From Cognaticolwellia beringensis (lineage in GTDB: Bacteria > Pseudomonadota > Gammaproteobacteria > Enterobacterales > Alteromonadaceae), in the NCBI RefSeq assembly GCF_002076895.1, contig NZ_CP020465.1, forward strand, positions 2,542,001-2,606,000: DNA of 64,000 nucleotides, written 5' to 3'. The notes beneath the pieces were generated by a model. The model ran no database searches. It saw nothing but the letters and a program-made list of their open reading frames with translations, and had not been told where the DNA came from. The position numbers were made by a program, and so were the translations under genes. Below, in pieces: positions 34,527 through 61,234 of the stretch. Every line of letters begins with the position of its first letter. Positions within the stretch are counted from its first letter, which is position 1.

Positions 34527-35224
34527 GTGCTTATGCCTAAACGGTGATTTGTTGTCATCATATAGTTAATTTAAGTGAGGTTTCTACTCTGCTGACATTA
34601 CATATGCCATAAAGGCCGATAACCAACCAAAAAACTCGATGATAAAAGCTGATAAGTTAAAGTGAAAATAGAATGATATTAAAACGAGTAGTGCGCCTAT
34701 GGCGTTAATGACGCTGTAAGCTTAAGTATTACTTACGCCTTTAGCTCTTAAACATACCTTAATCAACAAAGTATCGCGGTATTAGCTGCGAAACGCCAAC
34801 CTTAATAAGTGAGTAATATACTGTCATTATTGGCGCTTATTGTATAGATAAGGGCTTTTACAATGGCGTATTTCTCGATTTAAATTATAAAAACTAACGC
34901 AGCATTGTGTTATGGCCATTCCGGTTTTTTTAACGAAGATATTGAATAATAAAACTGACAAAATTTTCATGAAATCATACTGAAAGTGTTTGCAATTAAA
35001 CACTTATACATATTGTCAAAGGCAGCTGTTAGAGCACTTTTATTTTCCTAAACAGTGCCTAATGACAGGAAAAAAACACCTCAAAAGTTGGATACTTTAT
35101 CGTTTAGTCCATATTGACGATGAGAGATAGTGCCTGTTATGAAAATCTGATGTTAAGTAATAAAAGAAGCTAGAGTGCTTTAATCAGCACGATACATGCG
35201 CTAACTCTATACAGGATAATTACC
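34527..35224. other. Intergenic upstream of the HsaA-like gene
   Basis: About 700 bp of AT-rich DNA. The only clear signal is the operator-like site at 35103-35122, about 100 bases from the HsaA-like start, followed by the ribosome site ACAGGA. Confidence 0.5.
35103..35122. promoter_or_regulatory. Operator-like dyad site 1
   Basis: TTTAGTC-CATATT-GACGATG fits the shared pattern CATCGTC-N6-GACGATG with a perfect right half. It lies upstream of the HsaA-like monooxygenase. Confidence 0.55.
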
Positions 35225-36445
35225 ATGAGTGTTCACTATAAAATTGATATTACAGGTATATCTGATGACTTTCTTACACCAGAAGCCACTCGTTTAATTG
35301 AATCGGCAGAGAAGTTGGTTCCTAATTTGCTAGAGCGAGCCCATGCTACAGATGCTGCAGGTAAAGTACCTGATGAAACCATAAAAGAGATGATCGAAGC
35401 TGGCTTATTTAGGGTCTTACAACCTAAGCGTTGGGGTGGCTATGAGCTTGACCCACGAGTTTTTTATATTATACAAATGACGTTAGCACAAGGCTGTATG
35501 TCTACGGCTTGGATCTATGGTGTTATTGGTGTTCATAACTGGCAAATAGGCCTTTTCGATGAAAAAGCACAAGTTGAAGTGCTGGCTGAAAACCCTGAAA
35601 TATTGATTGCCTCTACATATATGCCAGTGGGTAAAGCGGAAAAAGTTGACGGCGGATATAATTTCACTGGTCGATGGGGTTTTTCAAGCGGTGTTGAACA
35701 CTGTGAATGGATTTTCTTAGGCGGATTAGTACCAAAAACACCGGGTAGTAAAGAGCTTGAACATAGAACGTTCTTATTGCCTAAATCTGATTATACCGTT
35801 GTTAAAAATTGGGATGTTCATGGTCTTCGTGGCACTGGTAGTCACGATATTGTCGTTGAAGGGGCATTTGTTCCTGATTATCGTACACACCAAACCAATG
35901 ATTACAGTGATGAAGCCTGTAAAGGCCGTGCTATCAATGATAACTGGTTATATCGAATTCCATTTGTACAAATCTTTCAACGCGCAGTTTCTACCGCAGG
36001 TATTGGTGCGCTTGATGGGGCAATTACAGAGTTTCGTAAACGTTCTGCTGAGCATGTTGGTAAACATGGTGGTAAAACAGCAGAAGATGTCAATGCTCAA
36101 ATGGCGGTCACTGAAGCTATGATGACCAGTGACCATTTAAAGCTGGTATTGTTTAGAAATTTTGCTGAAGTGGTTAAACATACCAAGAATGGCGAAATGA
36201 TGCCGGTTAATGATCGCTTGTTACAACGTGCACAGTCAGCTGCTGTGCCTAAGCAGGTTGCTGAGAGAATTAACGAAATTCTACGAGCTTGTGCAGGCGC
36301 TGGTTTATATCGAAGTAACCCTATTGAAAGAGCCTTTCGTGATATCCATCAATCACGAGGTCATATAGCGAATAATACTGATGCTTACATTCGTGCACAC
36401 GGTACCGTCATGTTAGGTTTACCAAACACAGATCCTTTTGTTTAA
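35225..36445 (+). CDS. HsaA-like flavin-dependent monooxygenase
   Basis: A 406-residue protein with the acyl-CoA-dehydrogenase fold used by group D flavin monooxygenases. It follows Mycobacterium HsaA (3-HSA hydroxylase of steroid ring degradation) throughout: LLQPKRWGGYELDP-type segment, STAWIYGVIGVHNWQIGLFD, GRWGFSSGVEHCEWIFLGG, GLRGTGSHDIVVEGAFVP and the ending GLPNTDPFV. HsaA uses FMNH2 from a separate reductase to hydroxylate a phenolic ring. Here the next gene is an Fe-S reductase rather than an HsaB-type flavin reductase. Substrate is inferred, not shown; hydroxylation of other cyclic or aromatic compounds is possible. Confidence 0.82.
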   Translation: MSVHYKIDITGISDDFLTPEATRLIESAEKLVPNLLERAHATDAAGKVPDETIKEMIEAGLFRVLQPKRWGGYELDPRVFYIIQMTLAQGCMSTAWIYGVIGVHNWQIGLFDEKAQVEVLAENPEILIASTYMPVGKAEKVDGGYNFTGRWGFSSGVEHCEWIFLGGLVPKTPGSKELEHRTFLLPKSDYTVVKNWDVHGLRGTGSHDIVVEGAFVPDYRTHQTNDYSDEACKGRAINDNWLYRIPFVQIFQRAVSTAGIGALDGAITEFRKRSAEHVGKHGGKTAEDVNAQMAVTEAMMTSDHLKLVLFRNFAEVVKHTKNGEMMPVNDRLLQRAQSAAVPKQVAERINEILRACAGAGLYRSNPIERAFRDIHQSRGHIANNTDAYIRAHGTVMLGLPNTDPFV

Positions 36446-36459
36446 GCTAAGGAGTCGCT

Positions 36460-37530
36460 ATGTCTCGTTACCATAATTTAACCGTTGCTGAAGTCATACA
36501 AGAAACCGCAGATGCGAATTCTATATTGTTTGATATTCCAGCAACGTTAACCGAGCAATTTACATATCAGCCAGGGCAATTTATAACCCTTAAGCTCCCT
36601 TATGAAGGTGAGACTATAATGCGCTGTTACTCAATGTCTAGCACTCCGAGCCAGGATGATGGTTTGCGTGTTACGGTCAAGCGAGTTGATGGTGGGCGCG
36701 GTTCTAACTGGATTTGCGATAATTTAATTGCAGGTAGCGAGCTTGAAGTCATGCGACCTGCTGGACTTTTTGTACCAAAAGATTTAGCTGAAGATCATCT
36801 GCTCTGTGCCGGTGGTAGTGGTGTTACACCCGTAATGTCAATTTTGCGTCATGTATTGGTGAATGGCACAGGTAAAGTGCGGGTAATCTACGCGAATCGT
36901 GATGAAGCGTCGGTAATATTTAAGCAAACATTTAAAGCATTATCAGCAGAATATCCTGATCGCCTTGAAGTGATTCACCTTTTAGATTCATTACAAGGCA
37001 TTCCGGCACTTTCACTGTTAACTTCCTTAGCTGATGGTATGCAACAAGGTCGTGCCTTTATCTGTGGTCCTGGCCCCTTTATGGACGCGATGGAAATAGC
37101 AGTGAAAGCGGCTAAATTTCCAAGTAGTCGTATTCATATTGAGCGTTTCTCTAGTACCGTGCCAAAAGCTGTTTCAGCACCTGCAGAGACTAGTTCACCA
37201 AAAAAAGCGAGTCAAAAAGAGAACGTTGAATCAACGATTGATGATTCAGAAATGCCTGCAGCTACCGTGCAGCTTGAGCTTGATGGTGAGCATTATGTTA
37301 TTCCATGTGAGCCAGGGCAAACCGTACTTGATGCGGCTGAAAACATTGGTATTGAATTACCATATTCCTGCCGTGAAGGGATGTGCGCATCATGTATGTG
37401 CGAGATTGTTGAAGGTAAAGTCAAACTCAACAATAACGATGTACTTGATGAAAAAGACTTGGCGAATAACTTCATATTAAGCTGCCAAGCTATACCACTC
37501 ACCTCTGAGGTGAAGATCAAATATACCTAA
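36460..37530 (+). CDS. KshB-like NAD(P)H:[2Fe-2S] reductase
   Basis: A 356-residue reductase: FAD domain (MRCYSMSSTPSQDDG), nucleotide domain (GGSGVTPVMSIL), an alanine/lysine-rich linker at about 228-260, and a C-terminal [2Fe-2S] domain (LPYSCREGMCASCMCEI ... SCQA). The C-terminal segment closely follows KshB, the reductase of 3-ketosteroid 9-alpha-hydroxylase, and less closely the PaaE at 27234. Its natural partner KshA is not in the window; it may serve the HsaA-like enzyme 14 bases upstream or a KshA elsewhere. Confidence 0.82.
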   Translation: MSRYHNLTVAEVIQETADANSILFDIPATLTEQFTYQPGQFITLKLPYEGETIMRCYSMSSTPSQDDGLRVTVKRVDGGRGSNWICDNLIAGSELEVMRPAGLFVPKDLAEDHLLCAGGSGVTPVMSILRHVLVNGTGKVRVIYANRDEASVIFKQTFKALSAEYPDRLEVIHLLDSLQGIPALSLLTSLADGMQQGRAFICGPGPFMDAMEIAVKAAKFPSSRIHIERFSSTVPKAVSAPAETSSPKKASQKENVESTIDDSEMPAATVQLELDGEHYVIPCEPGQTVLDAAENIGIELPYSCREGMCASCMCEIVEGKVKLNNNDVLDEKDLANNFILSCQAIPLTSEVKIKYT

Positions 37531-37603
37531 ATTACGCATCGTGCGTTACAACATATTCTAAATGTGCAGCAAAGGCTGCGTTTTACTGACATAAGAGGTT
37601 TTC

Positions 37604-38374
37604 ATGCAATCACGTTTTCAAGATAAAGTTGCTTTTATTACTGGCGGCGGCAGTGGCATAGGCGCAGCAACCGCTCAGCGTTTAGCTGAAGAAGGTGCCA
37701 AGGTTATTATTTGTGGTCGTCGTTTAGCGCCATTAGATGAAGTTGTTGCTGGCATTCGCGAGCAGGGCGGTAAGGCTCAGGCTATGCAGGTTGATGTTAG
37801 TGACGAACAAGCTTTTGTCAATGCGCTTGAGCAAACAGCCAAGGAGCATGGCGGCTTAGACATTTTGGTCAATAATGCGATGGCGTTTTCATACGGCTCA
37901 ATAGATACTATGACCACTGAAGATTGGCACAGTAACTTCGCAACGTCGGTAGATGGAACTTTTTGGGGGACACGAACGGCCATGAAACTGATGAAAGCAA
38001 AAGGTGGCTCTATTGTGAATATTTCCTCTATTTGTGGTGATTTAGGCACGCCGATGATGTCGGGTTATAGCGCCTCTAAAGCTGCAGTAGTTAATTTTTC
38101 ACGCGCGGCAGCTGCTGAAGGCGCAGCAGATAATATTCGAGTTAATGTTGTTGTTCCCGCGGTTGTAGAAACACCTGCTACCGCAGGCATGCTGAGTGAT
38201 GATGCTATGCTGAAAAATACCAACAGACTTATTCCGATGGGCAGAGTTGGGCGCAGTGATGAACTTGCCAGTGCTATCGCATTTTTAGCCAGCGATGATG
38301 CGTCATATATTACAGGTGCTAGTTTACCGGTTGATGGTGGCCGTGCGGCTGTGCTTATTACGGCTTTGGATTAA
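37604..38374 (+). CDS. Short-chain dehydrogenase/reductase
   Basis: A 256-residue classical SDR: nucleotide loop TGGGSGIGAA, NNAMA (variant of NNAG), catalytic Ser in NISSICGD and YSASK. The C-terminal GASLPVDGG is standard. Alcohol/ketone oxidoreductase, probably of the same cyclic substrate as its neighbours; exact chemistry cannot be read from sequence. It follows the reductase after 73 bp and precedes the OYE gene closely. Confidence 0.88.
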   Translation: MQSRFQDKVAFITGGGSGIGAATAQRLAEEGAKVIICGRRLAPLDEVVAGIREQGGKAQAMQVDVSDEQAFVNALEQTAKEHGGLDILVNNAMAFSYGSIDTMTTEDWHSNFATSVDGTFWGTRTAMKLMKAKGGSIVNISSICGDLGTPMMSGYSASKAAVVNFSRAAAAEGAADNIRVNVVVPAVVETPATAGMLSDDAMLKNTNRLIPMGRVGRSDELASAIAFLASDDASYITGASLPVDGGRAAVLITALD

Positions 38375-38383
38375 GGAATGACA

Positions 38384-39454
38384 ATGACTACCATTAATTC
38401 TTTGCTAACAACAGGTAAGCTTGGTGATATAGAAATAGCGAACCGAGTGGTTATGGCACCTATGACGCGTAATCGTGCGGATGCGGATGGCACCCCCAAT
38501 AATTTAATGCGCGATTATTATAGTCAACGAGCCAGTGCTGGTTTAATTGTTGCTGAAGGCACTTGGCCAGTAGCAACGGGACAAGCCTACAATCGCCAAC
38601 CCGGTATTGAAACGCCAAAACAAATTCAAGCATGGCGGGAGATTACCGATGCCGTGCACGAAAAAGGCGGTAAAATCGTCTTACAAATCATGCATGCGGG
38701 ACGTATTGGATCTCATCACATCAAAGGAAACTCTGTACCTACAGTGGCTCCTTCCGCGATTAAAGCGCGCGGTGAAGTTTATACTGATAGTGCAGGGATG
38801 CAACCTTATGACATGCCCACTGAACTTAGCACAGAGCAAGTATGGCAAGTGATTGATGAACATCGCCAAGCAGCAGCGAATGCTTTAGAAGCGGGTTTTG
38901 ATGGCGTAGAACTACATTGTACTAGTGGTTACTTACCTATGCAGTTTTTATGTTCAGATTCGAATCAACGTAATGACGAATTTGGTGGCAGTGTACAAGC
39001 TCGAGCAAAGTTTGCTGCGGAGTGTTTACGTGCGATGGCTTCAGTCTATGGTGCTGGTTGTGTTGGTTTAAGAATGAACCCAGGGAATCGTTTTAATGAC
39101 ACCAACGACGAGTTTCCAGAACAAAGCCATGTGGCATTACTCAATGCTATTGCTGATTTAGATTTAGCCTATTTACACATGATGCAAGCACCAATAGAGA
39201 CGATAGATGCGTTTAAAATTGGCCGAGAGTCATTTAAAGGTGCACTGATAATTAATGACGGATTTAATCCAGAATCAGCGGCACAGGCGATAGAAAGTGG
39301 CCAAGCTGAAGCGGTATCTTTTGCTCGGCATTATGTTGCCAACCCAGATCTTGTTAAGCGCATCGTTGCAGACTTGCCGTTGACTAAATTTGATCGAAAA
39401 ACACTTTATACTCCAGGTGCAGCTGGCTACAGTGACTATTCAAAAGCAGAGTGA
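38384..39454 (+). CDS. Old yellow enzyme-type alkene reductase
   Basis: A 356-residue FMN ene-reductase of the NemA/OPR group: APMTRNRADADGTPN, YYSQRASAGLIVAEGT, QIMHAGRIGSH, and GVELHCTSGYLPMQFLCSDSNQRNDEFGG, where the usual HGANGYL is HCTSGYL. These enzymes reduce activated C=C bonds; in the present context reduction of a ring enone is plausible. ATG at 38384 is preferred over 38378 because AAGG is then correctly spaced. Ends the 35.2-39.5 kb run. Confidence 0.86.
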   Translation: MTTINSLLTTGKLGDIEIANRVVMAPMTRNRADADGTPNNLMRDYYSQRASAGLIVAEGTWPVATGQAYNRQPGIETPKQIQAWREITDAVHEKGGKIVLQIMHAGRIGSHHIKGNSVPTVAPSAIKARGEVYTDSAGMQPYDMPTELSTEQVWQVIDEHRQAAANALEAGFDGVELHCTSGYLPMQFLCSDSNQRNDEFGGSVQARAKFAAECLRAMASVYGAGCVGLRMNPGNRFNDTNDEFPEQSHVALLNAIADLDLAYLHMMQAPIETIDAFKIGRESFKGALIINDGFNPESAAQAIESGQAEAVSFARHYVANPDLVKRIVADLPLTKFDRKTLYTPGAAGYSDYSKAE

Positions 39455-39740
39455 TTTATTAACATACCAGTGGCATAAAAAGTGCTGCTGGTGTAAATAC
39501 AGAATATATACCTAATAATGGGCTATTAATAACGATAAAGGTAAGTTTAAACAGCGCTGATAAATATTCTTGATAGCCTTTAAAATATTTGATTGACTGT
39601 TTGTAAAGGTCGAAATAAAATTAATTGAGTCAGCATTGCTTGAAACATTATAAAGCAGACTAGATATATAATATTTAAATGTGTATTGTTGTTTTATCGT
39701 AAATCTTTAATTTATAAACTAATAATTATAGGTCGAATAC

Positions 39741-40901
39741 ATGGCACATATAGATTTAGAGCTGGAAAAATATAATGAATTAATAAATTCATTATATGAA
39801 GCAGCCAAAGATAGCAGTACCGAAGAATGGCGTGAGCCGCTGAAATTATTGCAAGTGTTGTTCAAAGCAAATTATGTCACTTTGATTTTAAAACTCCCCG
39901 AAGAAGAAGATCTAGGCTTAATGATAGCCGTTGGTGGACATCTTGAAGACGAGCATAGTATTCAATACCTGCCTTATCAGCACAATCTTACCCCGTTTTC
40001 TGATCAGCCTGTCGATACCGTATTAACCGTCGGTGATTTTATGTTTGATGCCGAATGGCAGAAAAACTCTTATCGTCAACATTGGTGTGCATGTAATGAT
40101 GTTTACCATGTCATGATGATTGATATCAGCACACCAGACGTAGGTAACCTAAGATTCAGGGTCACCCGTTCAGAATCTCAAGAAGATTTTTCTGAGTCTG
40201 ATAAAGCATTAGCTAAACTGCTCATTCCACATTTCAGACGGGCAATTTCGACATTTTTACAGCTCCACAGCAGCGCTTCCCTAGGTTTACTATACTCTCG
40301 TGCCATTGGCCGATTGTCTATCGCGACCATTACCATTGATGAACATGGCCGAGCACTAGATACAAATTTATTTGCTCAAGAAACTCTTGAAGTTGGTGAT
40401 GGACTTAAAATTACAGCTGGAAAACTTACCGCACATTCTCAAAGTGATAACCGTGAACTCAAACGTCTTATTAAGTTAGCTTTCGCCCAAGCTGGGGAAA
40501 AACAAACAACGCCTGAAGCGATGTCAATTTCTCGGCCATCGGGTGAGATTTCGCTCGGTGTCGTGATCGAAGTCATACCGTCATTAAGCTGGGCTGACGG
40601 TAAAGGACAGAAAAAAGCGGTAGTCTATATTCGCGATTCCGTTGGAAAATCGACCACGAGCATAGAGATATCGAAAAAACTCTTTGATTTAACACCCGCT
40701 GAAACCGCCTTATCATTGCAGTTAACCAATGGTTTATCGTTAGAAGAAGCAGCAGAAGCGCTCAATATTCGTCGTAATACCGCTAGGGCACACCTTCGCT
40801 CTATATTTTCTAAAACAGGTGTTCGACGACAAACAGAGTTAGTACGTTTGTTCCTAAATAGTGTTGCTGCATTAGGCTATGATGATCGTAATGAGTCATA
40901 G
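39741..40901 (+). CDS. LuxR-family regulator with PAS-like sensor region
   Basis: A 386-residue regulator. Residues 1-190 form a mixed alpha/beta sensor region, about 195-300 look PAS-like (ATITIDEHGRALDTN), and 320-380 are a GerE/LuxR helix-turn-helix (LTPAETALSLQLTNGLSLEEAA, NTARAHLRSIFSKTGVRRQTEL). Similar regulators accompany steroid genes (TeiR in Comamonas is LuxR-type). It is the only regulator gene in the 35-64 kb catabolic region, so it is the leading candidate to bind the shared dyad sites. Confidence 0.85.
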   Translation: MAHIDLELEKYNELINSLYEAAKDSSTEEWREPLKLLQVLFKANYVTLILKLPEEEDLGLMIAVGGHLEDEHSIQYLPYQHNLTPFSDQPVDTVLTVGDFMFDAEWQKNSYRQHWCACNDVYHVMMIDISTPDVGNLRFRVTRSESQEDFSESDKALAKLLIPHFRRAISTFLQLHSSASLGLLYSRAIGRLSIATITIDEHGRALDTNLFAQETLEVGDGLKITAGKLTAHSQSDNRELKRLIKLAFAQAGEKQTTPEAMSISRPSGEISLGVVIEVIPSLSWADGKGQKKAVVYIRDSVGKSTTSIEISKKLFDLTPAETALSLQLTNGLSLEEAAEALNIRRNTARAHLRSIFSKTGVRRQTELVRLFLNSVAALGYDDRNES

Positions 40902-40925
40902 TAAACATGGTTGATTATAATTAAT

Positions 40926-40963
40926 ACGTCTCAGGCATAGCATTTGAGACGTGATGATTTTTT
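40926..40963 (+). terminator. Rho-independent terminator after LuxR gene
   Basis: ACGTCTCA pairs with TGAGACGT, followed after five bases by a TTTTTT run. Confidence 0.75.
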
Positions 40964-41076
40964 CTTCTTCTTTTGTCATGCTCTCAATAGTCCATACGCA
41001 CTATGAATTTATAGCGATTAAAAACTACCTTTAAAGCTTAGAGCTATTTAATAACCTAACTTTAAAGGGATTGTGT

Positions 41077-42264
41077 ATGCGCGTTGCTTATCAAAATTCA
41101 TTAGCGCTGATACTAGCAGCGAGTTTTGCCTCTACCATTGGTGGCTTGCCTTTTAATTCACTACCCATTCTTTTGGGGGCTTTAGCTGATACTTTTGCTT
41201 TGAAGCCGCAGGAAATTGGCATACTGGGTTCAGTTTGTTTTGCAGGCTATTTGGTTGGTACCTTATCGTCGGTATTAATCATTAATCGTTTTTGTTGGCG
41301 TAAATTAACAGTCCTCTGTGCTTTGGCTTCATGCTGTTTATTGCTGCTGTCTGCTTTATCTGATGCTAATTGGCAGATGTTCCTGTGGGCGTTAATCGGA
41401 TTTTTTGCAGCATTAATGACTTGTTTGGGTTTAAGGATTATCGGCCAAACGTTAAATAAAGAGCGAGCACTAGGTATACGTCAAGGCATCGAGCTTGGGG
41501 TAACATCCATAGTATTATTTTTTTTACCTGCCTTTATTATCAGCCAGTTTGGTTACGTAGGGGTTGCATTAAGTTTATGTATTATAATATTTTTATTAAG
41601 TTTGAGTGTGTTTTGGTTACCAAAAAACACTCATCTATCAACTGAAAATAAAAGTATAAAATCACAATTGGATATCCCATTATCAGCTTGGTTAGCGTTG
41701 TTGGTATTCTTAATTTTTGCAACGGGTAATATCGCTTTATGGGCGTTTTTGGAACGTATTGGTAACAGTATTGAGTTAGAGTCTGCGCAGCTAGGTATTG
41801 TATTTGCGGTACTTAAGTTACTTGGTGGTGGAGCCGCGCTCTCAGTAGCACTTGTGGGAAACAAATTAGGGCTACGAAAGCCTTATATTATAGTTCTTAG
41901 TGTATTAACACTCGGACTTTATTTCATTTGGACTTCACTTACTAGCGGGTCTAATCAGTTTGTATTTTTTGCGATGGGGGCATGGGTGTGGGAAGTTGCC
42001 TTTACTTGGGGCTGCGTGTTTCAAACCGCAGCTGTGGCCAGATTAGATCAAAAAGGGAGTGCAATTATGCTTATTCCTGCTGCCTTTGGTGTTAGTGCTA
42101 TGGCAGGTCCAGCGCTAGGAGGTTGGTTAGCTTCTTTTGGCTATCAGCAAGTTTTATTACTCGCTTTTGCGACAAGTATTGTCGCGGTAATTTGTTATAT
42201 CGGGCCGTTAGCTGTTAAACAGCGACAAGTAACTAAAGAAGGACTTGCTGATAACATTAATTGA
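41077..42264 (+). CDS. MFS transporter
   Basis: A 395-residue major facilitator with twelve predicted helices and a central polar loop near residues 185-200. The A-motif between helices 2 and 3 is degenerate. The open frame begins at a TTG (41071), but AAAGGGA is spaced six bases from the ATG at 41077. Placed between the regulator and the beta-oxidation genes, it may import the substrate or export an intermediate. Family members are too diverse to name the substrate. Confidence 0.8.
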   Translation: MRVAYQNSLALILAASFASTIGGLPFNSLPILLGALADTFALKPQEIGILGSVCFAGYLVGTLSSVLIINRFCWRKLTVLCALASCCLLLLSALSDANWQMFLWALIGFFAALMTCLGLRIIGQTLNKERALGIRQGIELGVTSIVLFFLPAFIISQFGYVGVALSLCIIIFLLSLSVFWLPKNTHLSTENKSIKSQLDIPLSAWLALLVFLIFATGNIALWAFLERIGNSIELESAQLGIVFAVLKLLGGGAALSVALVGNKLGLRKPYIIVLSVLTLGLYFIWTSLTSGSNQFVFFAMGAWVWEVAFTWGCVFQTAAVARLDQKGSAIMLIPAAFGVSAMAGPALGGWLASFGYQQVLLLAFATSIVAVICYIGPLAVKQRQVTKEGLADNIN

Positions 42265-42294
42265 TGCAATTGCGGTTATCAGCATTTATTACAG

Positions 42295-42326: not shown

Positions 42327-42365
42327 AAGCATTAGTTAGGAAATGGTATTAGTAAGGGCTAAATA

Positions 42366-43151
42366 TTATTTACCTTTAAATTCAGCATGACGTTTTTCTA
42401 TGAAGGCCGTCATGCCTTCACGTTGATCTTGTGAAGCAAATAATATCGCGTTTGCCTTACGTTCAAGCGCCATTGCACTCGCAAGCGGAGCGTCCATTCC
42501 GGCCAAAATAACTTCTTTAATTTGCTCGGCTGCCAACGGCGGCATTCGTGCGATACGGCGACAATTAGCCAATGCAGTTTTATATACATCATCATCTTCG
42601 CATAGTTCACTCACAAGCCCACCAACCCAAGCGTCGTAAGCCGTAATAGGCTTACCTGTTAGTGCCATTTGCATCGCTTTAGCTTTGCCGACAGCGCGAA
42701 CTAAACGTTGAGTTCCTCCAATGCCTGGCATAATACCAATGGATATTTCCGGTTGGCAAAAACTGGCACCCGTACCGGCGATAATAATATCGGCCAACAT
42801 TGCAAGCTCGCAACCACCGCCATAAGCATAGCCAGAAACAGCTGCAACAACGGGTTTAGGGCATTGTTCAATGGGCGCCCACAAACGCTCAGTGTGACGC
42901 TGATAAATTTCTATCGGGTCTGCATCTATTAAGCCTTTTATGTCACCACCCGCAGCAAAAACTTTATCGCCACCGGTCAGCAAAATACAGCGCACTTCGT
43001 TATTGTCTGCTAGCTCGGTAAAATATTTTGATAATAATGTTTGCAGTTCTAAGCTTAAAGCATTGGTCGCGAGCGGACGGTTTAACCTTAACTCAGCCAC
43101 TCCATTTTCAGGAAAGCTCAATATAACGCTTGGCTCGTTTACATCTGTCAT
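42366..43151 (-). CDS. Enoyl-CoA hydratase/isomerase
   Basis: A 261-residue crotonase: GGDKVFAAGGDIKGL and YAYGGGCELAML oxyanion-hole segments, EISIGIMPGIGGTQRLVRAVG with catalytic Glu, and the ending EKRHAEFKGK. Likely hydrates a ring- or side-chain-derived enoyl-CoA. The frame opens at GTG 43154, but GGAG spaced to ATG 43151 is better. Divergent from the SDR operon, sharing a spacer that holds a dyad site. Confidence 0.88.
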   Translation of the reverse strand: MTDVNEPSVILSFPENGVAELRLNRPLATNALSLELQTLLSKYFTELADNNEVRCILLTGGDKVFAAGGDIKGLIDADPIEIYQRHTERLWAPIEQCPKPVVAAVSGYAYGGGCELAMLADIIIAGTGASFCQPEISIGIMPGIGGTQRLVRAVGKAKAMQMALTGKPITAYDAWVGGLVSELCEDDDVYKTALANCRRIARMPPLAAEQIKEVILAGMDAPLASAMALERKANAILFASQDQREGMTAFIEKRHAEFKGK

Positions 43152-43235
43152 CACTTACTCCAAACACTAGATTAGTTCATCTAGCACGTTAAAAATTTAA
43201 TATAGTGCATTGTCACTTTTAGAACCTTACGCGAG

Positions 43236-43255
43236 CATCGTCCATTTAGACGAAG
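43236..43255. promoter_or_regulatory. Operator-like dyad site 2
   Basis: CATCGTC-CATTTA-GACGAAG, matching CATCGTC-N6-GACGATG in 13 of 14 arm positions. Lies between the divergent crotonase and SDR genes. Confidence 0.6.
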
Positions 43256-43319
43256 CTGTAAACCTAAAACACTAGGTAAACTGTTTTCATGGAATTAATT
43301 TTAAATACAAGGCTGAGCA

Positions 43320-44105
43320 ATGCACCCGAGTGACAAATATAAAGATAAGGTTGTACTCATAACCGGAGGCACTAAAGGCATAGGCCTTGGAATCGCTAAC
43401 GGATTTTTATCGGCAGGCGCCGAAGTAGTTGTTTGTGGTCGTCAAGCTGTTGAAGCGCTACCGCAGGTAACTGTTGAAGGTGAGGTGAAAAAAGCCCACT
43501 TTATTCAAGCTGACGTAAAAGATATAGAAAGTACGGCGGCTATGTTTGCGGCCATTGTTGAAAAATATGGCCGGTTAGACGTATTAATTAATAATGCCGG
43601 CGGCAGCCCATTTGCCTTAGCAGATAAAGCTTCACCACGTTTCCACGAAGCAATATTGAAATTAAACCTGATTGCACCATTAAATGTCGCTCAACAAGCA
43701 AATGAAATCATGCAAGCGAATAATGGTGGCAGTATTATTTTTATCTCCAGCATAAGCGCCATGCGTGCTTCTCCTGGTACTGCAGCTTACGGCGCAGCTA
43801 AAGCAGGGGTGTTGTCATTAGTAAAATCTCTTGCGGTTGAATGGGCACCTAAGGTTCGAACTATGGCCGTCAGCCCTGGCTTAGTAAAAACTGAAAATTC
43901 TCATCTTCATTATGGCGATGACGCGGGAATCGCGGCGGTTAGTGCGACTATTCCTGCAGGTCGAATGGCAGATCCAGAAGATATTGCTAACGCCTGTATC
44001 TTTTTAGCATCACCGGAAGCAAGTTATGCAAGCGGTTGTAATTTACTGATTAATGGCGGTGGTGAAATGCCCGCTTTTCTCAATGCTAGCGAAGAAAATA
44101 AATAG
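43320..44105 (+). CDS. Short-chain dehydrogenase/reductase
   Basis: A 261-residue SDR with TGGTKGIGLG, NNAGGSPF, catalytic Ser in FISSISAM and YGAAK, and LLINGGGEMP at the end. Possibly a 3-hydroxyacyl-CoA or hydroxysteroid dehydrogenase working with the beta-oxidation genes that follow. First of an eight-gene plus-strand unit reaching 51395. Confidence 0.87.
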   Translation: MHPSDKYKDKVVLITGGTKGIGLGIANGFLSAGAEVVVCGRQAVEALPQVTVEGEVKKAHFIQADVKDIESTAAMFAAIVEKYGRLDVLINNAGGSPFALADKASPRFHEAILKLNLIAPLNVAQQANEIMQANNGGSIIFISSISAMRASPGTAAYGAAKAGVLSLVKSLAVEWAPKVRTMAVSPGLVKTENSHLHYGDDAGIAAVSATIPAGRMADPEDIANACIFLASPEASYASGCNLLINGGGEMPAFLNASEENK

Positions 44106-52208: not shown

Positions 52209-53306
52209 CTAATTATCACCTATATATTCGGTCATGATTTTTTCAATTTTCTGCTCTTCTGAAAGCGTCAATAAAATTAAATTTATTTCATTTATTAGCT
52301 CGCTGTCGTTTCTAAACGCGAAACCATAGCCTTGCTTGTAATATTCAGCATTAGGAATATGAATATTTTCTGCTTTATGTTTGTTTTTATAAAACAACAA
52401 TTGTGGGCGGTCAAATACCACGGCATCTACGTCTTTATTTTTTAGCTTTTCCATAGCATCAGTTAGCGTGCTCACTAATACCGTTTTGCCTTGATGCTCA
52501 TCAATAAAACCAACGGCTGGCGAGCCCATTTTTGTTGCAATTTTTTTACCTGGAAACTGCTCTACTTGGGTGATTGTGGAGCTACTAAAGCCTGATAGGG
52601 TTAGAGTGCTGGCAATACCTGCAATCATCGACGTTGCGAATATTAACGAGATAATCATCCAGCAGCCGGCTACAACTCGACCTTTTAAACTTACTGGCGC
52701 CATATCGCCATAGCCTGTGGTGCTCATAGTGACAATAGCTAACCACATACCATTGGCGATACCTTTTTTTGGATCGGCTGGGAACTGTTCAGGTGAATGT
52801 TTACGCTCAGCCAGCCAAAATAACAGCCCGACTGATGCCAACAAAGATAAAAATATACAAATTGCGATTAACAACTGCATGCTAAAAAAAGGTTTTATTT
52901 TACCCCAAAAACTGGCGTTTTCATCACGAGAGGCAATGGTAAGACTAGATTGATAGTAAGGTTGGGAGAAACGAAAGTCTTTGACTCGTTCAGAGGTAAT
53001 ACTAATGGGTCCCGCCAGTAAATCAACTTGACCTTGCTTTAAAGCATTAAGCGCTTTATCAACTGAATCAAAATATTTATATTGGTATGTCCAATTTTTT
53101 TGTTTAGCAATTTTCTCCCAAATTGAAAGTGAGATACCTTCTAATGATTTACTGTCTGGATTGTATATAACAAATGGCTTGTCACCTGCAACAGCAACCG
53201 TTAGCGCGGTAATTTCAGCCTCTTTTTGAGCATACACAGAAAAAGACAAAGCAGCCATCAGGCTAAAAACGCACATTAGTCGTGAATAAAATTTATTTTT
53301 AAGCAT
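52209..53306 (-). CDS. GluR0-like ligand-gated K+ channel
   Basis: A 365-residue protein combining a signal peptide (to about residue 26, VYAQ), a periplasmic solute-binding domain split in two (FVIYNPDSKSLEGISLSIWE; QVDLLAGPISITSERVKDF; and after the pore GKKIATKMGSPAVGF to the end), and between them two membrane helices flanking a pore loop with the K+ selectivity filter TMSTTGYGDMAP (about residues 190-200). This is the layout of prokaryotic ionotropic glutamate receptors such as Synechocystis GluR0. Ligand is probably an amino acid. Monocistronic. Confidence 0.87.
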   Translation of the reverse strand: MLKNKFYSRLMCVFSLMAALSFSVYAQKEAEITALTVAVAGDKPFVIYNPDSKSLEGISLSIWEKIAKQKNWTYQYKYFDSVDKALNALKQGQVDLLAGPISITSERVKDFRFSQPYYQSSLTIASRDENASFWGKIKPFFSMQLLIAICIFLSLLASVGLLFWLAERKHSPEQFPADPKKGIANGMWLAIVTMSTTGYGDMAPVSLKGRVVAGCWMIISLIFATSMIAGIASTLTLSGFSSSTITQVEQFPGKKIATKMGSPAVGFIDEHQGKTVLVSTLTDAMEKLKNKDVDAVVFDRPQLLFYKNKHKAENIHIPNAEYYKQGYGFAFRNDSELINEINLILLTLSEEQKIEKIMTEYIGDN

Positions 53307-54258: not shown

Positions 54259-54755
54259 TTCACCTATCACGTGCCAGCAAAGGTGTCGTGAAGCTAGCAC
54301 GTTATTTGGCAATTGAATAAGGTATAGTCGGTAAATTTTGAGTAATTAAATAATTATTATCCAACGGCTTTGGTGTTACATTATTGCTTGCTATATTAGG
54401 TTAAGAGCGCTAAGAAATTAAAGTGTTGTGTATAACTTTATTATGACGTTATAAGGATTTAACTATTTATTTCGCAGCGATTAAAAATAGATGAATAAAC
54501 TACAGATTATTAACCATTTACTTGGCGTTTATTAACGTCTTATGGCTCATTCAGGTGGTTCACCTAAATACAATTAGCTGGTCGACATACTGGAAAAGAA
54601 ACTCCTAAAAGTGTCGCAATGGAGTATTTTGATCCTAGAGTAAAAGATAACGTGGAATTAACAAGAACAGATGATTTTTCGCTACTTTCTACATTTTAGT
54701 CAACAATTCTTGTCTGTTACACGGGTGCAGACCAATACAGGATTATTATTCACCG
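54259..54755. other. Intergenic with possible gene remnant
   Basis: The stretch 54575-54699 reads in one frame as GRHTGKETPKSVAMEY then FDPRVKDNVELTRTDD, ending at a stop, with no start and stops just upstream. It may be the tail of a decayed gene. The rest is non-coding to the eye. Confidence 0.3.
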
Positions 54756-55550: not shown

Positions 55551-55775
55551 TTGCCTATACCGGCTTTATTGCTTTAGTTATATTAGTAGTGTTTTTTGTC
55601 TTAGCTCAGTCGAGAGCCCATATATATTGCGTTTCTATTAGAGCTGGCCGGCACTACATTTTGGTTTGTTAACACTAGGCGACTATGTCGTCGTTTAGCA
55701 TGCACCCGTCGGTTTAATGAGCTGATATTTAGTGTTTGAATGCGCTTTAATGCTAGCGCATTCATTTTGATTGAT

Positions 55776-57044: not shown

Positions 57045-57291
57045 AATACTGACAAGATTGAATGATAATAGGACTTAATTATATCTGAAATAAATTGAAA
57101 CTGCTTGGGCAAAAAAGCTAATATTGGCCAAGGAACTTCGCTCGATGTATGGTGTAGTAACCAGGTGGTTTAATTGTGTTCAGATTAATAAAATCTGCAG
57201 TATTGTCACCATAATTTATTCAAGTTTTATTGTTGCAAAATATATGAACTTTCAGTTTACCCGTTAATTTTTATCAAGGTTATAAAAGAAA

Positions 57292-57855
57292 ATGATCGAT
57301 ACTCAAGCTATTAACAAAATGCAAAGTACGTTAGTAGGCGGACAGCCTGTGTGGTTATTCGGTTATGGTTCACTTATTTATAAAGTCGACTTTGATTATT
57401 TAGCTTGCAAACCGGCCCGAATAGCTAATTGGACTCGCCGTTTTTGGCAGGGCTCTCATGATCATCGTGGTACACCTGAAGCGCCGGGTCGCGTGGCTAC
57501 TTTAGTTGAGGAGCCTAATGCTAGTTGTATCGGCATGGCGTATAAGGTGAGTCCCGAGGTTTTTGAGCATCTTGATCACCGTGAAAAAAATGGTTATTTA
57601 CGCCTGACAACGCAACTGCATTTTTCAGATGGTAGCGAAGCTGAAGGCCTGGTATATATTGCAACAGAAGATAATGTTGCTTTTTTAGGACCAGCAAGTG
57701 AAGCCGATATTGCTAAACATATCGCGAATTCGAAAGGACCAAGCGGCCCCAATGATGAATATTTACTCGAGTTAGCTAAAGCCTTGCGCGAACTGAACGC
57801 ACAAGATGACCATGTTTTTACTATTGAACAGCATTTGCTTGCTTTGTCGTCTTAA
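57292..57855 (+). CDS. ChaC-like gamma-glutamylcyclotransferase
   Basis: A 187-residue protein with the cyclotransferase loop LFGYGSLIYK (about residue 24), R-rich FWQGSHDHRGTPEAPGRVATL, and catalytic Glu in LDHREKNGY. ChaC enzymes degrade glutathione to 5-oxoproline and Cys-Gly. Single gene followed by a terminator. Confidence 0.88.
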   Translation: MIDTQAINKMQSTLVGGQPVWLFGYGSLIYKVDFDYLACKPARIANWTRRFWQGSHDHRGTPEAPGRVATLVEEPNASCIGMAYKVSPEVFEHLDHREKNGYLRLTTQLHFSDGSEAEGLVYIATEDNVAFLGPASEADIAKHIANSKGPSGPNDEYLLELAKALRELNAQDDHVFTIEQHLLALSS

Positions 57856-57928
57856 ACAGGAGCTAAATCACTGAGCCTGCCGTTACCGTCATTGTAAAGA
57901 CCAGTTAAATTTAGGAATTTAAACTGAT

Positions 57929-57965
57929 AAAGGGATCTAGTAACACTAAACCCCTTTTATTTTTA
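57929..57965 (+). terminator. Rho-independent terminator
   Basis: AAAGGG (57929-57934) pairs with CCCTTT (57952-57957), followed by TTTTATTTTT. Confidence 0.65.
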
Positions 57966-58032
57966 ACTGTGAAAGCTAGTAGTCAATTAATCAACTTGGT
58001 ATCAGTTACTTTTATAAGTCTACGCGCACGAA

Positions 58033-60153
58033 TTAGCACTCTAAACCCGCTCGGTAACCAGAGTTCAACGCGCCTTCTATGTAGTTCACTTCATTGCTAT
58101 CACCAATAACTTTGACATTCAGGCCAGCGGCAATTAAAGCGTTTGCCAAGCTCCTGTCTGCAGCAATACCCGTTGCCATTATTACCGTATCCGCCGAGGT
58201 GCTTTGTGCTTCTTCGTTGACTTGATAGTGCACTGCTTGTTCATCAATGTTTGTTACTTGTGCTTCTTTGATTAAGTCTACACCTAAATCTTTTAGATGA
58301 TCTAGCACGCGCCAACGTCTCACAATACTCAGTTCAATACCTAAATCTCGACTTGCTTCTAGCACAGTGACTTCACGGCCACGTTCAGCTAAAAATTCTG
58401 CTAATTCTAAGCCGACTAAGCCACCGCCAACGATAGTGACGCGTTTTCCTAGCGGCATCCATAGATGTGATAATCGTTGAAGGGTACTTATTTGCTTAGT
58501 TAAACCCAGTAAATTACCTGTACCCACCATTAAACGTTGCACGGGTCCAAGTTGCGCGCGTGTGCTCGGGCTGACTTCACCGGTTAGCAGTTGTCGTAAT
58601 TGCTCGCCAGACCAAACATGGCTCAACGAAGCACCTTCAATATCAGGCATCTCTCTACTTGCGCCTGTGGCCACAAATACTTCATCTGCGTTCATTGACT
58701 GAAGTAATTCAGCTGTGGCTATTGTGTTCAGTTTTACCTCAACTTTAGCTTGTGCCAACTCTTGGAGTTGATAATCGAGCAACTTGCCATTTTCTGGATA
58801 AGCAAGGGCGGCAAAAAATAAAGTGCCGCCTAAGCGTTTACTGCGTTCTAACAAGGTAACCTGATGGCCTCGTTGACTTGCTGTTACTGCCGCTTCTATA
58901 CCTGATGGACCGCCACCAATAATGACAATATGTTTGGCTTTATCGGTCATGATGACTTTTAATTCAAACTCTTTACCTGTTCTTGGATTCGCGGCACATT
59001 TAACGCGCTGATTAATAAATACTTGGCTAACGCAAACATAACAGTAAATACATGGACGGATATTGACTTCGCGATCAGCCATGAGCTTATTAGGCAGTTC
59101 GGGATCGGCCAATAACTTGCGGCCCATGGCAACAAAGTCACATTTGCCAGTAGCAATGGCGTCATTAGCAACATCGGGTTCGAGCCTGCCAACGGCAATT
59201 ACCGGAATGGAGACCGCTTTGCTTACTGCTTCGGCCCAGTCTAGGAAACCAGCGGGTTGGTGAACTAAAGGCGCTTGGGTAAAATCAGAGCCGCGAGTTA
59301 AATTAGCGTAGGCTGAAACACTGACGGCATTAAGGCCCGCTTTTTCTACCATTTGAGAGACTGCAATACAGTCGTCAATGGTAATACCACCTTCAGCATT
59401 AATCTCTTGTGCATCAAGGCGAAGCCAAACAGGAAATTCTTGACCAACTCTTTCGCGTATAGCAGCGACAACTTCAAGTAAAAGTCTAGCGCGGTTTTCA
59501 AGGCTACCACCATACTCATCTTCACGCTTGTTGTAATAATTTGATAAGAACCCGGCCAAAATATAAGAATGAGCTGCATGTAACTCAATACCGTCAAAGC
59601 CTGCTTGTTGAGAACGCTTAGCAGCAGCGGCAAACCATTCAACCATTTGCGCGATATCGGCCTTATCCATGACTCTAATTTTTATTGGCTTGTCTTGTGC
59701 TGGTCGAACAAAAGTACTTAACTCTTTGTTAGTTATCGCTTGCATGATGTCATTTTTCGGCGGAGCAGGTGGCATTGAGGGTACCCAAAGCTCACGGCCT
59801 TCTGCGAGGTCACGTACCGCGGTTTTACCGGCATGTTGTAGTTGCACGGAAATTTTTGCACCATGGGCATGTACTCTGTCGGTCAATGCTTTTAACCCAG
59901 GAATAAACTCGTCTTTTGATATGCCTACCTGATACGGCTCAGCAGTACCTGCTGGAAATGCAATCGCGATTGAGCCCATAGTGATCAGGCCAACGCCTCC
60001 CTTTGCTCGCGCTTCATAAAAAGCTTGAATTCGCTCACTACAATGGCCATCTTCATCGGCAAGATTTGAGCCCATCGGAGCCATAATAATTCGGTTACGT
60101 AGCGTGAGCCCGCCAATCTTTCCTGGCTTAAGTAAATGCTGATAATCTGACAT
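58033..60153 (-). CDS. FMN/FAD/[4Fe-4S] enoate reductase, BaiCD/FadH-like
   Basis: A 706-residue multidomain enzyme. Residues 1-370 are an OYE-type barrel (APMGSNLADEDGHCSER, GIELHAAHSYILAGFLS, NKREDEYGGSLENRARLL); Cys ligands CIYCYVC...VKCAANP at about 345-370 bind Fe-S; the rest is a FAD/NAD module (IIGGGPSGIEAAV, VTIVGGGLVGLELAEFLAERG). 2,4-dienoyl-CoA reductase FadH and the bile-acid enone reductases BaiCD/BaiH share this plan. In context with HsaD-, BaiE- and CoA-ligase-like neighbours it may reduce a dienoyl-CoA or steroid enone. Follows the hydrolase gene after 50 bp. Confidence 0.85.
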   Translation of the reverse strand: MSDYQHLLKPGKIGGLTLRNRIIMAPMGSNLADEDGHCSERIQAFYEARAKGGVGLITMGSIAIAFPAGTAEPYQVGISKDEFIPGLKALTDRVHAHGAKISVQLQHAGKTAVRDLAEGRELWVPSMPPAPPKNDIMQAITNKELSTFVRPAQDKPIKIRVMDKADIAQMVEWFAAAAKRSQQAGFDGIELHAAHSYILAGFLSNYYNKREDEYGGSLENRARLLLEVVAAIRERVGQEFPVWLRLDAQEINAEGGITIDDCIAVSQMVEKAGLNAVSVSAYANLTRGSDFTQAPLVHQPAGFLDWAEAVSKAVSIPVIAVGRLEPDVANDAIATGKCDFVAMGRKLLADPELPNKLMADREVNIRPCIYCYVCVSQVFINQRVKCAANPRTGKEFELKVIMTDKAKHIVIIGGGPSGIEAAVTASQRGHQVTLLERSKRLGGTLFFAALAYPENGKLLDYQLQELAQAKVEVKLNTIATAELLQSMNADEVFVATGASREMPDIEGASLSHVWSGEQLRQLLTGEVSPSTRAQLGPVQRLMVGTGNLLGLTKQISTLQRLSHLWMPLGKRVTIVGGGLVGLELAEFLAERGREVTVLEASRDLGIELSIVRRWRVLDHLKDLGVDLIKEAQVTNIDEQAVHYQVNEEAQSTSADTVIMATGIAADRSLANALIAAGLNVKVIGDSNEVNYIEGALNSGYRAGLEC

Positions 60154-60203
60154 AGCTTACAACCCTTTATTCTGCTTGATATATAATTGTATGATGTGCT
60201 GTT

Positions 60204-61058
60204 TTAGCCGTTTTGTAAAAAATCAAGACAACTGCTGTTAAATAATCGCAGATGTTCAACTTGCACCCAATGACCACAACGGTTGAGCATGATAAATCTG
60301 GCGGTTGGCACATTATCTAGAAATTTATGCATACCTTCATGGGGATTAAACTTGTCATTAGTGCCCCAAAAGCCTAAAACCGGGCACTGTAATTCAGCTA
60401 AGCGTTCGGTCATGTTGGGTACTAACATAGTACTAAATAAGTTCGACGGTTGGGTGACTGCAACGGCAGCGCGTTCTGCTAATATATCTTCGGAAAGGGC
60501 TGATGAGTCAAACAGTTGTAATGTCATTACTTCACGCATTTGTTCTACACCCATTGGTCCTCGGGCGAAAACTTCGACCATACGTTGAATACCTTCCATG
60601 TCAAAATAGGTTTCGCGTTCTTCAACACCACCAGGTGCCATTAAAATTAAGCGTTCAACTGTATCTGGGTAATCCAGAGCTTGACCTAAAGCAATTGCAC
60701 CACCCAAAGAGTTACCTAATAATGTTACTTTTGATAAGCTAAGGCCTGAAATTAAGCCATTTAATGCTGTAACGAAGAAGGCGAGGTCGTAGTTTACATC
60801 GTCTGGTTTGTCTGAACGGCCAAAACCGGGTAAATCAAGAATAATGTTACGATAGCCAGCTGCTGCAAACTCAGGATAATTACCTTTAAAATTACTAAAA
60901 CCACTGGCACCAGGGCCGCTACCATGCAGCCATATAACAACAGGGCCTTCACCTTCTTCAAGGTAGTGTAATGTAAGACCGCTATCTAAGGTAATAAAGT
61001 GTCCAAGTGGTAGCGGTAGATCCTGCGCTTGCTCTGGGGTGTTTTTAGATTGATTCAA
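60204..61058 (-). CDS. HsaD-like alpha/beta hydrolase (C-C bond hydrolase)
   Basis: A 284-residue alpha/beta hydrolase of the meta-cleavage-product group: WLHGSGPGASGFSNF oxyanion segment, GNSLGGAIALG with nucleophile Ser (about residue 117), Asp in FWGTNDKFNPHEG and His in NRCGHWVQVEH. HsaD, BphD and MhpC share these motifs. No extradiol dioxygenase is in the window, so its substrate supply must be encoded elsewhere, or it serves another ring-opening step. Start codon is TTG at 61058, nine bases after AGGAG. First gene of the minus-strand pair. Confidence 0.83.
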   Translation of the reverse strand: MNQSKNTPEQAQDLPLPLGHFITLDSGLTLHYLEEGEGPVVIWLHGSGPGASGFSNFKGNYPEFAAAGYRNIILDLPGFGRSDKPDDVNYDLAFFVTALNGLISGLSLSKVTLLGNSLGGAIALGQALDYPDTVERLILMAPGGVEERETYFDMEGIQRMVEVFARGPMGVEQMREVMTLQLFDSSALSEDILAERAAVAVTQPSNLFSTMLVPNMTERLAELQCPVLGFWGTNDKFNPHEGMHKFLDNVPTARFIMLNRCGHWVQVEHLRLFNSSCLDFLQNG

Positions 61059-61179
61059 AATTATTTCTCCTACTTATACCACTAGGTATTTATCTAACCA
61101 GCAAGCAGTGAAACTATCACAACCTGCGCGAATTTATATTATTTTCCAATTCGAGCTTGCGGTGTAAACGTTTAGCTAA

Positions 61180-61199
61180 CATCGTCCATTTAGACCACC
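61180..61199. promoter_or_regulatory. Operator-like dyad site 3
   Basis: CATCGTC-CATTTA-GACCACC: perfect left half of CATCGTC-N6-GACGATG and the same spacer as site 2. It lies in the divergent region between the hydrolase and SDR genes. Confidence 0.6.
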
Positions 61200-61214
61200 A
61201 TAGTGCTTTCTATA

Positions 61215-61234
61215 ATTAGTCTTGTTGGACGATG
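61215..61234. promoter_or_regulatory. Operator-like dyad site 4
   Basis: AATTAGTC-type left arm, TTGTTG spacer, GACGATG perfect right half. Centre is 35 bp from site 3. The two perfect halves also form an exact 10-bp inverted repeat ACATCGTCCA (61179-61188)/TGGACGATGT (61226-61235), which would allow co-operative or looped binding. Confidence 0.6.

Follow-up and report, generated by a model that had tools for sequence, protein, structure and literature searches.

A conserved 20-bp box ahead of steroid-degradation genes is a probable operator of a TeiR/TesR-like LuxR-type activator

A 20-bp box precedes steroid-catabolic genes in a 64,000-nucleotide stretch of Cognaticolwellia beringensis DNA (contig NZ_CP020465.1, positions 2,542,001 to 2,606,000; hereafter the window), and we establish here its motif, its polarity, its spacing to a -10-like element, its conservation, and its co-distribution with the gene of a LuxR-type regulator (39741, named after its start in the window). 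Judged from sequence, the boxes are very probably operators ("TeiR boxes") of this TeiR/TesR-like protein, which is predicted to bind them and to act as a class II activator. Because the box lies ahead of steroid-degradation genes in many distant bacteria, it offers an entry point for understanding how their expression is switched on.

The original prediction described four sites, each carrying one perfect half of a CATCGTC-N6-GACGATG dyad, and both their coordinates and their halves were confirmed (Table 1). One 7-base half is perfect in each site, and the other departs from the CATCGTC/GACGATG half by 3, 1, 3, and 3 mismatches in sites 1–4, respectively. The sites were said to lie in gaps expected to hold promoters, and all four are intergenic. 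When up to three mismatches were allowed, the dyad matched the window 8 times versus 1.1 expected (0 of 100 shuffles reached 8), with the four previously unreported matches all located inside ORFs. Sites 2 and 3 do share a core, which spans 16 bases (CATCGTCCATTTAGAC); the core quoted earlier as 13 bases (GTCCATTTAGAC) has 12 letters. The length of 20 bp also stands, but the cross-species consensus is polar, nnTAGTCC-N4-GGACGATG, rather than a perfect dyad. Box 2, which serves a divergent region, has a stronger polarity toward the hydratase than toward the SDR. A weak box that the original prediction lacked lies past the LuxR-type gene and ahead of the MFS gene, and relatives have a similar site soon downstream of their LuxR-type gene (e.g., at 11281, 11160, and 11291 in loci L059, L061, and L065). 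A scan with the refined matrix (see below) found no box upstream of the regulator's own gene in this genome, and a box is aimed at the regulator gene itself in only 1 of 83 loci.

Table 1. Boxes and associated genes in the window (window coordinates).
Feature	Position	Strand	Remarks
Box 1	35103..35122	+	TTTAGTCCATATTGACGATG; 102 nt upstream of HsaA-like gene
HsaA-like flavin monooxygenase	35225..36445	+	NF045629 at 359 bits, below cut-off of 450; leads block with ferredoxin reductase (36460), SDR (37604), and OYE (38378) downstream
LuxR-type regulator, TeiR/TesR-like	39741..40901	+	386 aa; C-terminal GerE HTH; proposed box reader
Weak box	40986..41005	+	AATAGTCCATACGCACTATG; refined matrix score 12
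MFS transporter	41071..42264	+	PF07690; 3' of weak box
Enoyl-CoA hydratase	42366..43154	-	NF006007 above cut-off
Box 2	43236..43255	-	Divergent region, enoyl-CoA hydratase/SDR
SDR	43320..44105	+	Heads block that reaches 51395 and includes ChsH2-like, acyl-CoA dehydrogenase, and thiolase-like genes
OYE-type reductase	58033..60153		Follows HsaD/BphD-like hydrolase
HsaD/BphD-like hydrolase	60204..61058	-	NF045632 and TIGR03343, both below cut-off
Box 3	61180..61199	-	Invariant half faces HsaD-like gene
Box 4	61215..61234	+	Invariant half faces SDR gene
SDR	61331..62074	+	3' of box 4; profile searches

Across the 4.66-Mb genome, the core CATCGTCMANNNRGAC, itself derived from the reported sites, has six exact matches, namely the four reported boxes and two more, all within 2577107–2621502 and all six at most 45 kb from one steroid (9,10-seco) cluster. 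Allowing one mismatch raises the count to 21, which is not above that of a reversed control pattern (23), and 5 of the 15 one-mismatch matches fall at 2577–2660 kb (binomial p = 5e-6). The genome-wide signal is thus carried by the exact matches and their clustering, not by the one-mismatch count. The first whole-genome pattern, CATCGTCNATNTNGACNAN with 3 mismatches, was too loose (522 matches versus 792 for its control) and was abandoned; a refined scan gave 13 sites, including the weak window site at 40986. The original prediction had proposed such a full-genome scan, and its view of a regulon motif that links steroid-type catabolic blocks is supported, the motif being concentrated at steroid genes genome-wide.

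We employed a matrix built from 11 sites of this genome only to search 80 loci around homologues of the LuxR-type gene. A box was found in 76 of the 80 loci. One scan of the 80 loci gave 366 matches (mean 78 and maximum 155 in 30 permuted controls). At scores of at least 14, 182 of 280 matches are noncoding and 98 are scored as coding, where noncoding DNA makes up 13.6% of the sequence, as called by a crude ORF caller that probably reports false ORFs in GC-rich genomes; 40 controls average 7 matches at this score. Only 6 of 322 sites fell inside aligned parts of homologues in a check with 24 query proteins only. The boxes are aimed at homologues of HsaA in 52 of the 53 loci holding one, of the enoyl-CoA hydratase in 17 of 17, of the box 2 SDR in 12 of 14, and of the box 4 SDR in 30 of 45. 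Among the 41 other genomes whose regulator homologue is at least 38% identical, 40 have a box upstream of HsaC, and none was found at the HsaC promoter of Endozoicomonas. The original prediction had staked itself on the sites persisting in those relatives in which the genes are retained, and they do. The locus counts, the set scoring at least 14, the consensus, and the HsaC-promoter result all use sites picked with the 11-site matrix; the refined matrix, which underlies the 13 genome sites, the counts of boxes aimed at homologues, the check with 24 query proteins, and the locus scans for the -10 spacing, was trained on 143 sites and then re-finds those sites in the same loci.

These 143 non-redundant sites, from which the consensus was drawn, were obtained by taking matches with scores of at least 15, coding or not, dropping those near locus ends or with two halves equally close to GACGATG (240 remaining), and thinning the rest. 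A -10-like element (nAnnnT) lies 19–21 nt past the box in 96% of them versus 13% elsewhere, and the flanks vary while the box is retained across classes. Because of this spacing, the box centre would lie near -42.5, like that of the lux box. The lux box is a 20-bp dyad read by a GerE-type HTH; in class II activation it is centred at about -42.5 and covers the -35 region. The TeiR box resembles it in the dyad length, in the type of HTH, and, as estimated from the -10 element, in the position of its centre. The two differ in that the lux box sequence is unrelated, and in that Pfam finds no AHL-binding domain in the 39741 protein.

The box and the regulator gene also occur together. All 10 family genomes that carry the LuxR-type gene contain the pattern TAGTCY-N5-GACGATG, versus 15 of the 236 that lack this gene (p = 2e-11), and only 1 of these 15 has two copies. 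All 50 genomes with relatives of the regulator contain the pattern, with 4–18 copies each (443 copies versus 7 for the reversed pattern). Genome G610 and a B. arboris record have variants only and no exact match. In one genome (G159), the regulator gene (352 kb) is far from the main box cluster (3.097–3.125 Mb), and it has a box of its own at a distance of 2.7 kb.

The 39741 gene sits in or beside the 9,10-seco steroid cluster, surrounded by a KshA_C-domain gene and HsaA/B/C/D-like genes. Its product matches PF00196 at 25.5 bits (cut-off 23.5), and a structural model of moderate to low confidence displays five C-terminal helices with the HTH at about residues 305–373. Pfam at E ≤ 0.001 gives two C-terminal HTH families only, with no autoinducer-binding domain. 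The best 120 of 1594 homologues are about 58–94% identical, the named ones being beta- and gammaproteobacteria; no Comamonas name appears among the 120 matches listed in each of three homologue searches, many of which are nameless. The HTH is nearly invariant in 21 aligned sequences, over the same range as the box. No 19-residue window reaches a hydropathy of 1.6 (maximum 1.23, with 88 such windows in the MFS control), indicating no membrane-like segment, a result compatible with peripheral membrane attachment.

The original prediction named the 39741 product as the reader of the sites, which fits the tests run, and from these we infer direct binding by the LuxR-type protein, dimerisation, activation, and a ligand. 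A dimer of the C-terminal HTH would occupy the 20-bp polar dyad over the place of the -35 element and would recruit RNA polymerase, by class II activation, to promoters whose -10 lacks a -35 at the proper spacing. The N-terminal part of the protein may sense the trigger, either a steroid or a catabolite formed early in its breakdown. A single regulon could in this way turn on ring opening (KshA, HsaA, HsaB, HsaC, and HsaD) together with transporters and the enzymes for the side chain and rings C/D. Such a regulon is directly testable, with promoters predictable base by base and steroid genes callable by their operator, and the box might find use in steroid biosensors.

TeiR/TesR of Comamonas testosteroni, likewise of LuxR type and encoded within a steroid megacluster, is described in passages of PMC6678751 and PMC13101464 as a positive regulator of steroid genes and there and in PMC8700777 as required for their induction. 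P. stutzeri Chol1 has two TeiR-like genes, and a mutant deleted for one of them is delayed in degrading cholate (unpublished data recounted in PMC8399759). C. testosteroni TeiR is reported in PMC6678751 to be a polarly located membrane protein that has kinase activity, and kinase-dependent signalling also appears in PMC8399759, whereas the 39741 protein shows no membrane-like segment. According to a report repeated in a 2019 paper (PMC6895838), tesR-like genes are confined to C. testosteroni; the box and the breadth of its distribution suggest a regulator and operator shared across many genera. The TesR-dependent clusters named in PMC6895838 (tesB to tesR, tesA1 to tesG, and tesA2 to ORF18) are predicted to be preceded by boxes as well. 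Our literature search, which covered search listings and passages of PMC6678751, PMC8700777, PMC12239570, PMC13101464, PMC8399759, PMC6895838, and PMC4810484, found no printed TeiR/TesR operator and no match to the six exact site strings. The EdcR operator of the proteobacterium Caenibius tardaugens is comparable in that it too is a palindrome located at steroid (estrogen) promoters, but EdcR is a repressor whose proposed operator, TnnCnnTACnAnTnGTAnnGnnA, overlaps the -10 (passages of PMC8700777) and is unrelated in sequence to the TeiR box. We lean toward the view that aerobic steroid catabolism across Proteobacteria (gamma, beta, and an alpha trace) has an ancient switch in common, made up of one operator, 19–21 nt before the -10, and one family of LuxR-type activators, that the activator is a soluble one-component class II protein and not a membrane kinase, and that the box alone may suffice to locate unannotated steroid genes and steroid transporters in genomes.

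Could the box belong to another factor (of TetR, AraC, LysR, or MarR type) that always accompanies the steroid genes and represses them, with the LuxR-type gene a mere neighbour? Dyads of about 20 bp are typical of TetR-type repressors too, so the size of the box would fit one, and a binder could be encoded outside the cluster. KstR/KstR2 operators of Actinobacteria precede steroid genes of the same pathway, as the boxes do. These regulators, which govern actinobacterial steroid genes, are TetR-type repressors of another phylum (a passage of PMC6678751), whereas here a LuxR-type protein is paired with an activator-type position: a box end 19–21 nt ahead of the -10, at the -35 place, is more in keeping with a class II activator than with a repressor. 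The cluster does contain an AraC-type gene (2627730–2628686), but just 8 of the 50 box-bearing genomes have an orthologue of it, and this candidate was set aside. No other HTH family was found in the 22 remaining window ORFs that are at least 150 aa long (35.2–62.7 kb) or, besides AraC, in the 43 scanned of the 45 ORFs that are at least 90 aa long at 2604.7–2659.5 kb; a TetR-type repressor is absent from all 23 window ORFs of at least 150 aa in that stretch and from the same 43 ORFs beyond the window. We consider another binder unlikely.

That the sites represent a promoter element, or common ancestry of duplicated promoters, and not a regulator's operator is very improbable. The -10-like element at a fixed distance and the 16 bases common to sites 2 and 3 would agree with such an origin, but the flanks diverge while the box persists across classes, and the pattern is almost absent from the 236 regulator-less family genomes, where a general element would not be. 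A chance likeness among AT-rich intergenic sequences chosen by eye has a negligible probability: the four sites were a post hoc selection, half-sites often occur singly, and the one-mismatch core is no commoner than its reverse, yet the shuffled, permuted, and reversed controls are exceeded by wide margins and the exact genome matches all cluster, which refutes it. Operators of the LuxR-type activator remain our preferred reading.

Pathway and regulator themselves co-occur almost perfectly: KshA is found in 9 of 246 family genomes, all with the regulator, and an HsaC homologue in 35 of 35 regulator-bearing genomes tested. Co-distribution alone therefore cannot separate the regulator from the pathway. 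TeiR-positive Pseudomonas were considered as pathway-less genomes and rejected; their best KshA match is 31–34% identical in 22 of 25 and missing in 3, and HsaC is present at 69–73% in all 25, so they cannot make this separation either. Novosphingobium pNL2 and Sphingobium TomMM7A, intended as controls with the pathway and without the regulator, are weak ones. Neither has an exact pattern match in the whole record or a box upstream of HsaC, and the refined matrix finds one match in each within the 41 kb examined (16.8 in pNL2 and 14.6 in TomMM7A). TomMM7A encodes a regulator homologue of 29.5% identity; pNL2 is not among the 20 regulator-homologue matches listed and is said in a passage of PMC12239570 to hold a LuxR-like gene. 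The regulator homologues of sphingomonad plasmids are distant. The alpha trace mentioned above is one good box upstream of KshA on a Sphingobium plasmid related to TomMM7A.

The four sites of the original prediction (window positions 35103, 43236, 61180 and 61215) are present in the sequence as described, and their 20-bp dyad, CATCGTC-N6-GACGATG, occurs eight times in the window at up to three mismatches, against 1.1 expected. We searched the whole C. beringensis genome, a single contig of 4,661,274 bases on which the window occupies 2542001–2606000, with the core CATCGTCMANNNRGAC taken from these sites. This genome-wide scan, proposed with the original prediction, placed every exact match inside the steroid cluster stretch (six matches at 2577107–2621502, comprising the four reported sites and two new ones). 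With one mismatch allowed the total was 21, not above the 23 of a reversed control, and 5 of the 15 one-mismatch matches fall at 2577–2660 kb. The species-wide form TAGTCYNNNNNGACGATG likewise occurs six times, always within 2577105–2637444, and its reversed pattern not at all. A refined matrix gave 17 matches at 14 places at scores of at least 10, compared with a mean of 3.65 and a maximum of 9 for 20 column-permuted matrices. Thirteen of these boxes lie in the steroid cluster, and one further place, 2531616, lies outside it.

The better half of the box (GACGATG or its nearest form) faces a gene at every one of the 13 boxes, which is weakly informative at most of them because those regions are divergent. 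Where only one direction is possible (2582986, 2608863, 2620386, 2621483 and 2659905), the polarity rule held in all five cases, and the divergent HsaD/SDR promoter carries two boxes, one for each gene. Gene content was read over 200 kb around the window, and the steroid cluster extends over ∼2577–2660 kb. Its steroid gene names rest on domain and genomic setting; IpdB (a candidate lacking a Pfam match) and KstD (candidates being one flavoprotein and one FAD_binding_2 protein) are our reading.

Boxes, steroid cluster genes and other features (seven-digit positions and kb refer to the genome)
Feature	Position	Remark
Box		before HsaA
Box, weak		before MFS, window 41071
Box		between enoyl-CoA hydratase and SDR
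Box		before HsaD
Box		before SDR, window 61331
Box		before HsaC
Box		before 2-hydroxyacid dehydrogenase
Box		before SDR 2621570
Box		before HsaB
Box		before aldehyde dehydrogenase
Box		before MFS gene, with KshA behind it
Box		before SDR 2655947
Box		far (411 nt) before TonB receptor
KshA	steroid cluster	KshA_C domain, E 8.7e-58
Extradiol dioxygenase	steroid cluster	HsaC-like
Flavin reductase	steroid cluster	HsaB-like
CoA-transferase	steroid cluster	IpdA-like
HMGL/DmpG-type aldolase	steroid cluster	HsaF-like
Acetaldehyde dehydrogenase	steroid cluster	HsaG-like
FAA-hydrolase-type hydratase	steroid cluster	HsaE-like
ChsH2-like proteins	steroid cluster	
Acyl-CoA dehydrogenases, thiolases, acyl-CoA ligases	steroid cluster	many
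MFS transporters, TonB receptors	steroid cluster	
AraC-type gene	2627730–2628686	L056:1730–2686
paa cluster	window 17871–31695	PaaX-like regulator at 28371
Ligand-gated ion channel	window 52209–53306	split SBP domain (PF00497, PF00060)
Resolvase and integrase-like genes	window 1005–4487	near each other

The 143 non-redundant polarised sites yield the consensus nnTAGTCC-N4-GGACGATG, and an nAnnnT hexamer begins 19–21 nt past the box in 96% of them; other windows average 13% and never exceed 24%. At offset 20 the −10 score averaged 5.0, versus at most 3.18 in 2000 rotations. As a rule, transcription starts 6–7 nt after the −10 element, and LuxR-type class II activators bind centred near −42.5. 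Given this start and the −10 spacing, the box would span ∼−52 to −33, with its centre at −42.5. Any TTGAC within the box, ∼23 nt from the −10 element, is probably too far away to serve as a normal −35.

Relatives of the 39741 protein, the LuxR-type TeiR/TesR-like regulator encoded in the window, occur in Thalassotalea, Colwellia, Aliiglaciecola, Shewanella, Marinobacterium, Amphritea, Halomonas, Pseudomonas, Thauera and Aromatoleum, among others, with identities of 57–83% in a 21-sequence alignment. In 80 named loci around regulator-like genes (the best 80 of 247), a matrix built from 11 C. beringensis sites gave 366 matches at scores of at least 10 (30 permuted dyads, mean 78, maximum 155). 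The predicted conservation was borne out, with a noncoding match of at least 14 in 76 of the 80 loci and two or more in 57. A box faces the homologue of HsaA in 52/53 loci, of enoyl-CoA hydratase in 17/17 and of KshA in 16/19; none faces OYE (0/26) or ltp2-like (0/36) homologues in the regulator loci, and in the C. beringensis cluster these genes sit within blocks. We examined up to 350 nt upstream of HsaC in 38 genomes and five named records, apart from C. beringensis. Of these, 41 encode a regulator homologue with at least 38% identity, and in 40 of them a box (score 18.1–21.8) stands 48–80 nt ahead of HsaC; 99.9% of 880 randomised sequences scored under 14.0. An Endozoicomonas is the single exception of the 41, and two sphingomonad plasmids also have no box in this interval. 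On the Sphingobium sp. TomTYG64 plasmid AP027328.1 (L198:4722–4741), the box CCTAGTCTCTTCGGACGAAG precedes an annotated 3-ketosteroid-9-alpha-monooxygenase gene by 54 nt and is followed 19 nt on by TAAAGT. Since this box is present though the nearby regulator homologue is only 31% identical, the element may reach into the alphaproteobacteria.

We searched 246 family genomes for the regulator at E ≤1e-40 and found it in 10. The box pattern is present in all 10 (6, 5, 3, 5, 5, 7, 5, 5 and 5 copies in nine, a single copy in an incomplete tenth), versus 15 of the 236 genomes without the regulator (a single copy in 14, two in the other; Fisher p 1.8e-11). In G125, a family genome with no regulator match, two pattern matches lie on contig C601, separated by 3.3 kb. 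In a second set of 50 genomes, picked from those of the 80 loci, every genome has the pattern (4–18 copies each; 443 in total versus 7 reversed). The 18 matches belong to Pseudomonas sp. NKUCC02_KPG (G280, locus L107), which has two HsaC homologues and perhaps holds two steroid clusters. A phylum sample of 398 genomes contained four others with HsaC (E ≤1e-90), each with a regulator homologue (39–64%); three have 6–8 pattern matches, and the fourth has none and a variant box before HsaC. Presence alone cannot separate the regulator from the pathway, because HsaC occurs in 35/35 regulator-bearing genomes tested.

The 39741 protein, modeled with moderate confidence (mean pLDDT 68.7, pTM 0.44), has a predicted fold of two alpha/beta regions, taken for putative sensor domains, and a C-terminal HTH; no membrane-like segment was found in it. 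In the 21-sequence alignment the HTH is nearly invariant between gamma- and betaproteobacteria, and it is well kept in more distant homologues; this near-invariance fits the constancy of the box. The protein would be a TeiR/TesR-type one-component activator, reading the box through putative binding when a steroid signal is present. By the refined matrix no box lies upstream of the regulator's own gene in C. beringensis, so there is no sign of autoregulation. The cluster's AraC-type gene has an orthologue in 8 of the 50 box-bearing genomes, and its product may control a sub-block of the cluster; no further HTH regulator was found when 22 other window ORFs (150 aa or longer) and 43 of the 45 ORFs considered outside the window were scanned.

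TesR/TeiR of C. testosteroni is the positive regulator of steroid genes, according to PMC6678751, PMC8700777 and PMC13101464. No operator for it appeared in the literature passages searched, the proposed operator of EdcR differs from the box in sequence, and six exact site strings do not occur in the literature searched. We judge the box to be a real and widely conserved putative operator, with a regulon, of a known regulator kind; operator and regulon are new as far as the literature searched shows. PMC6895838 repeats that tesR-like genes are reported only from C. testosteroni. The homologues found here across many genera, in genomes that carry steroid genes, argue against this restriction, as do the TeiR-like genes mentioned for P. 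stutzeri Chol1 in PMC8399759.

The paa cluster is an ordinary phenylacetate catabolic cluster with no refined-matrix match of at least 10. The resolvase and integrase-like genes are perhaps a mobile element remnant, and the ion channel resembles a prokaryotic ionotropic glutamate receptor.
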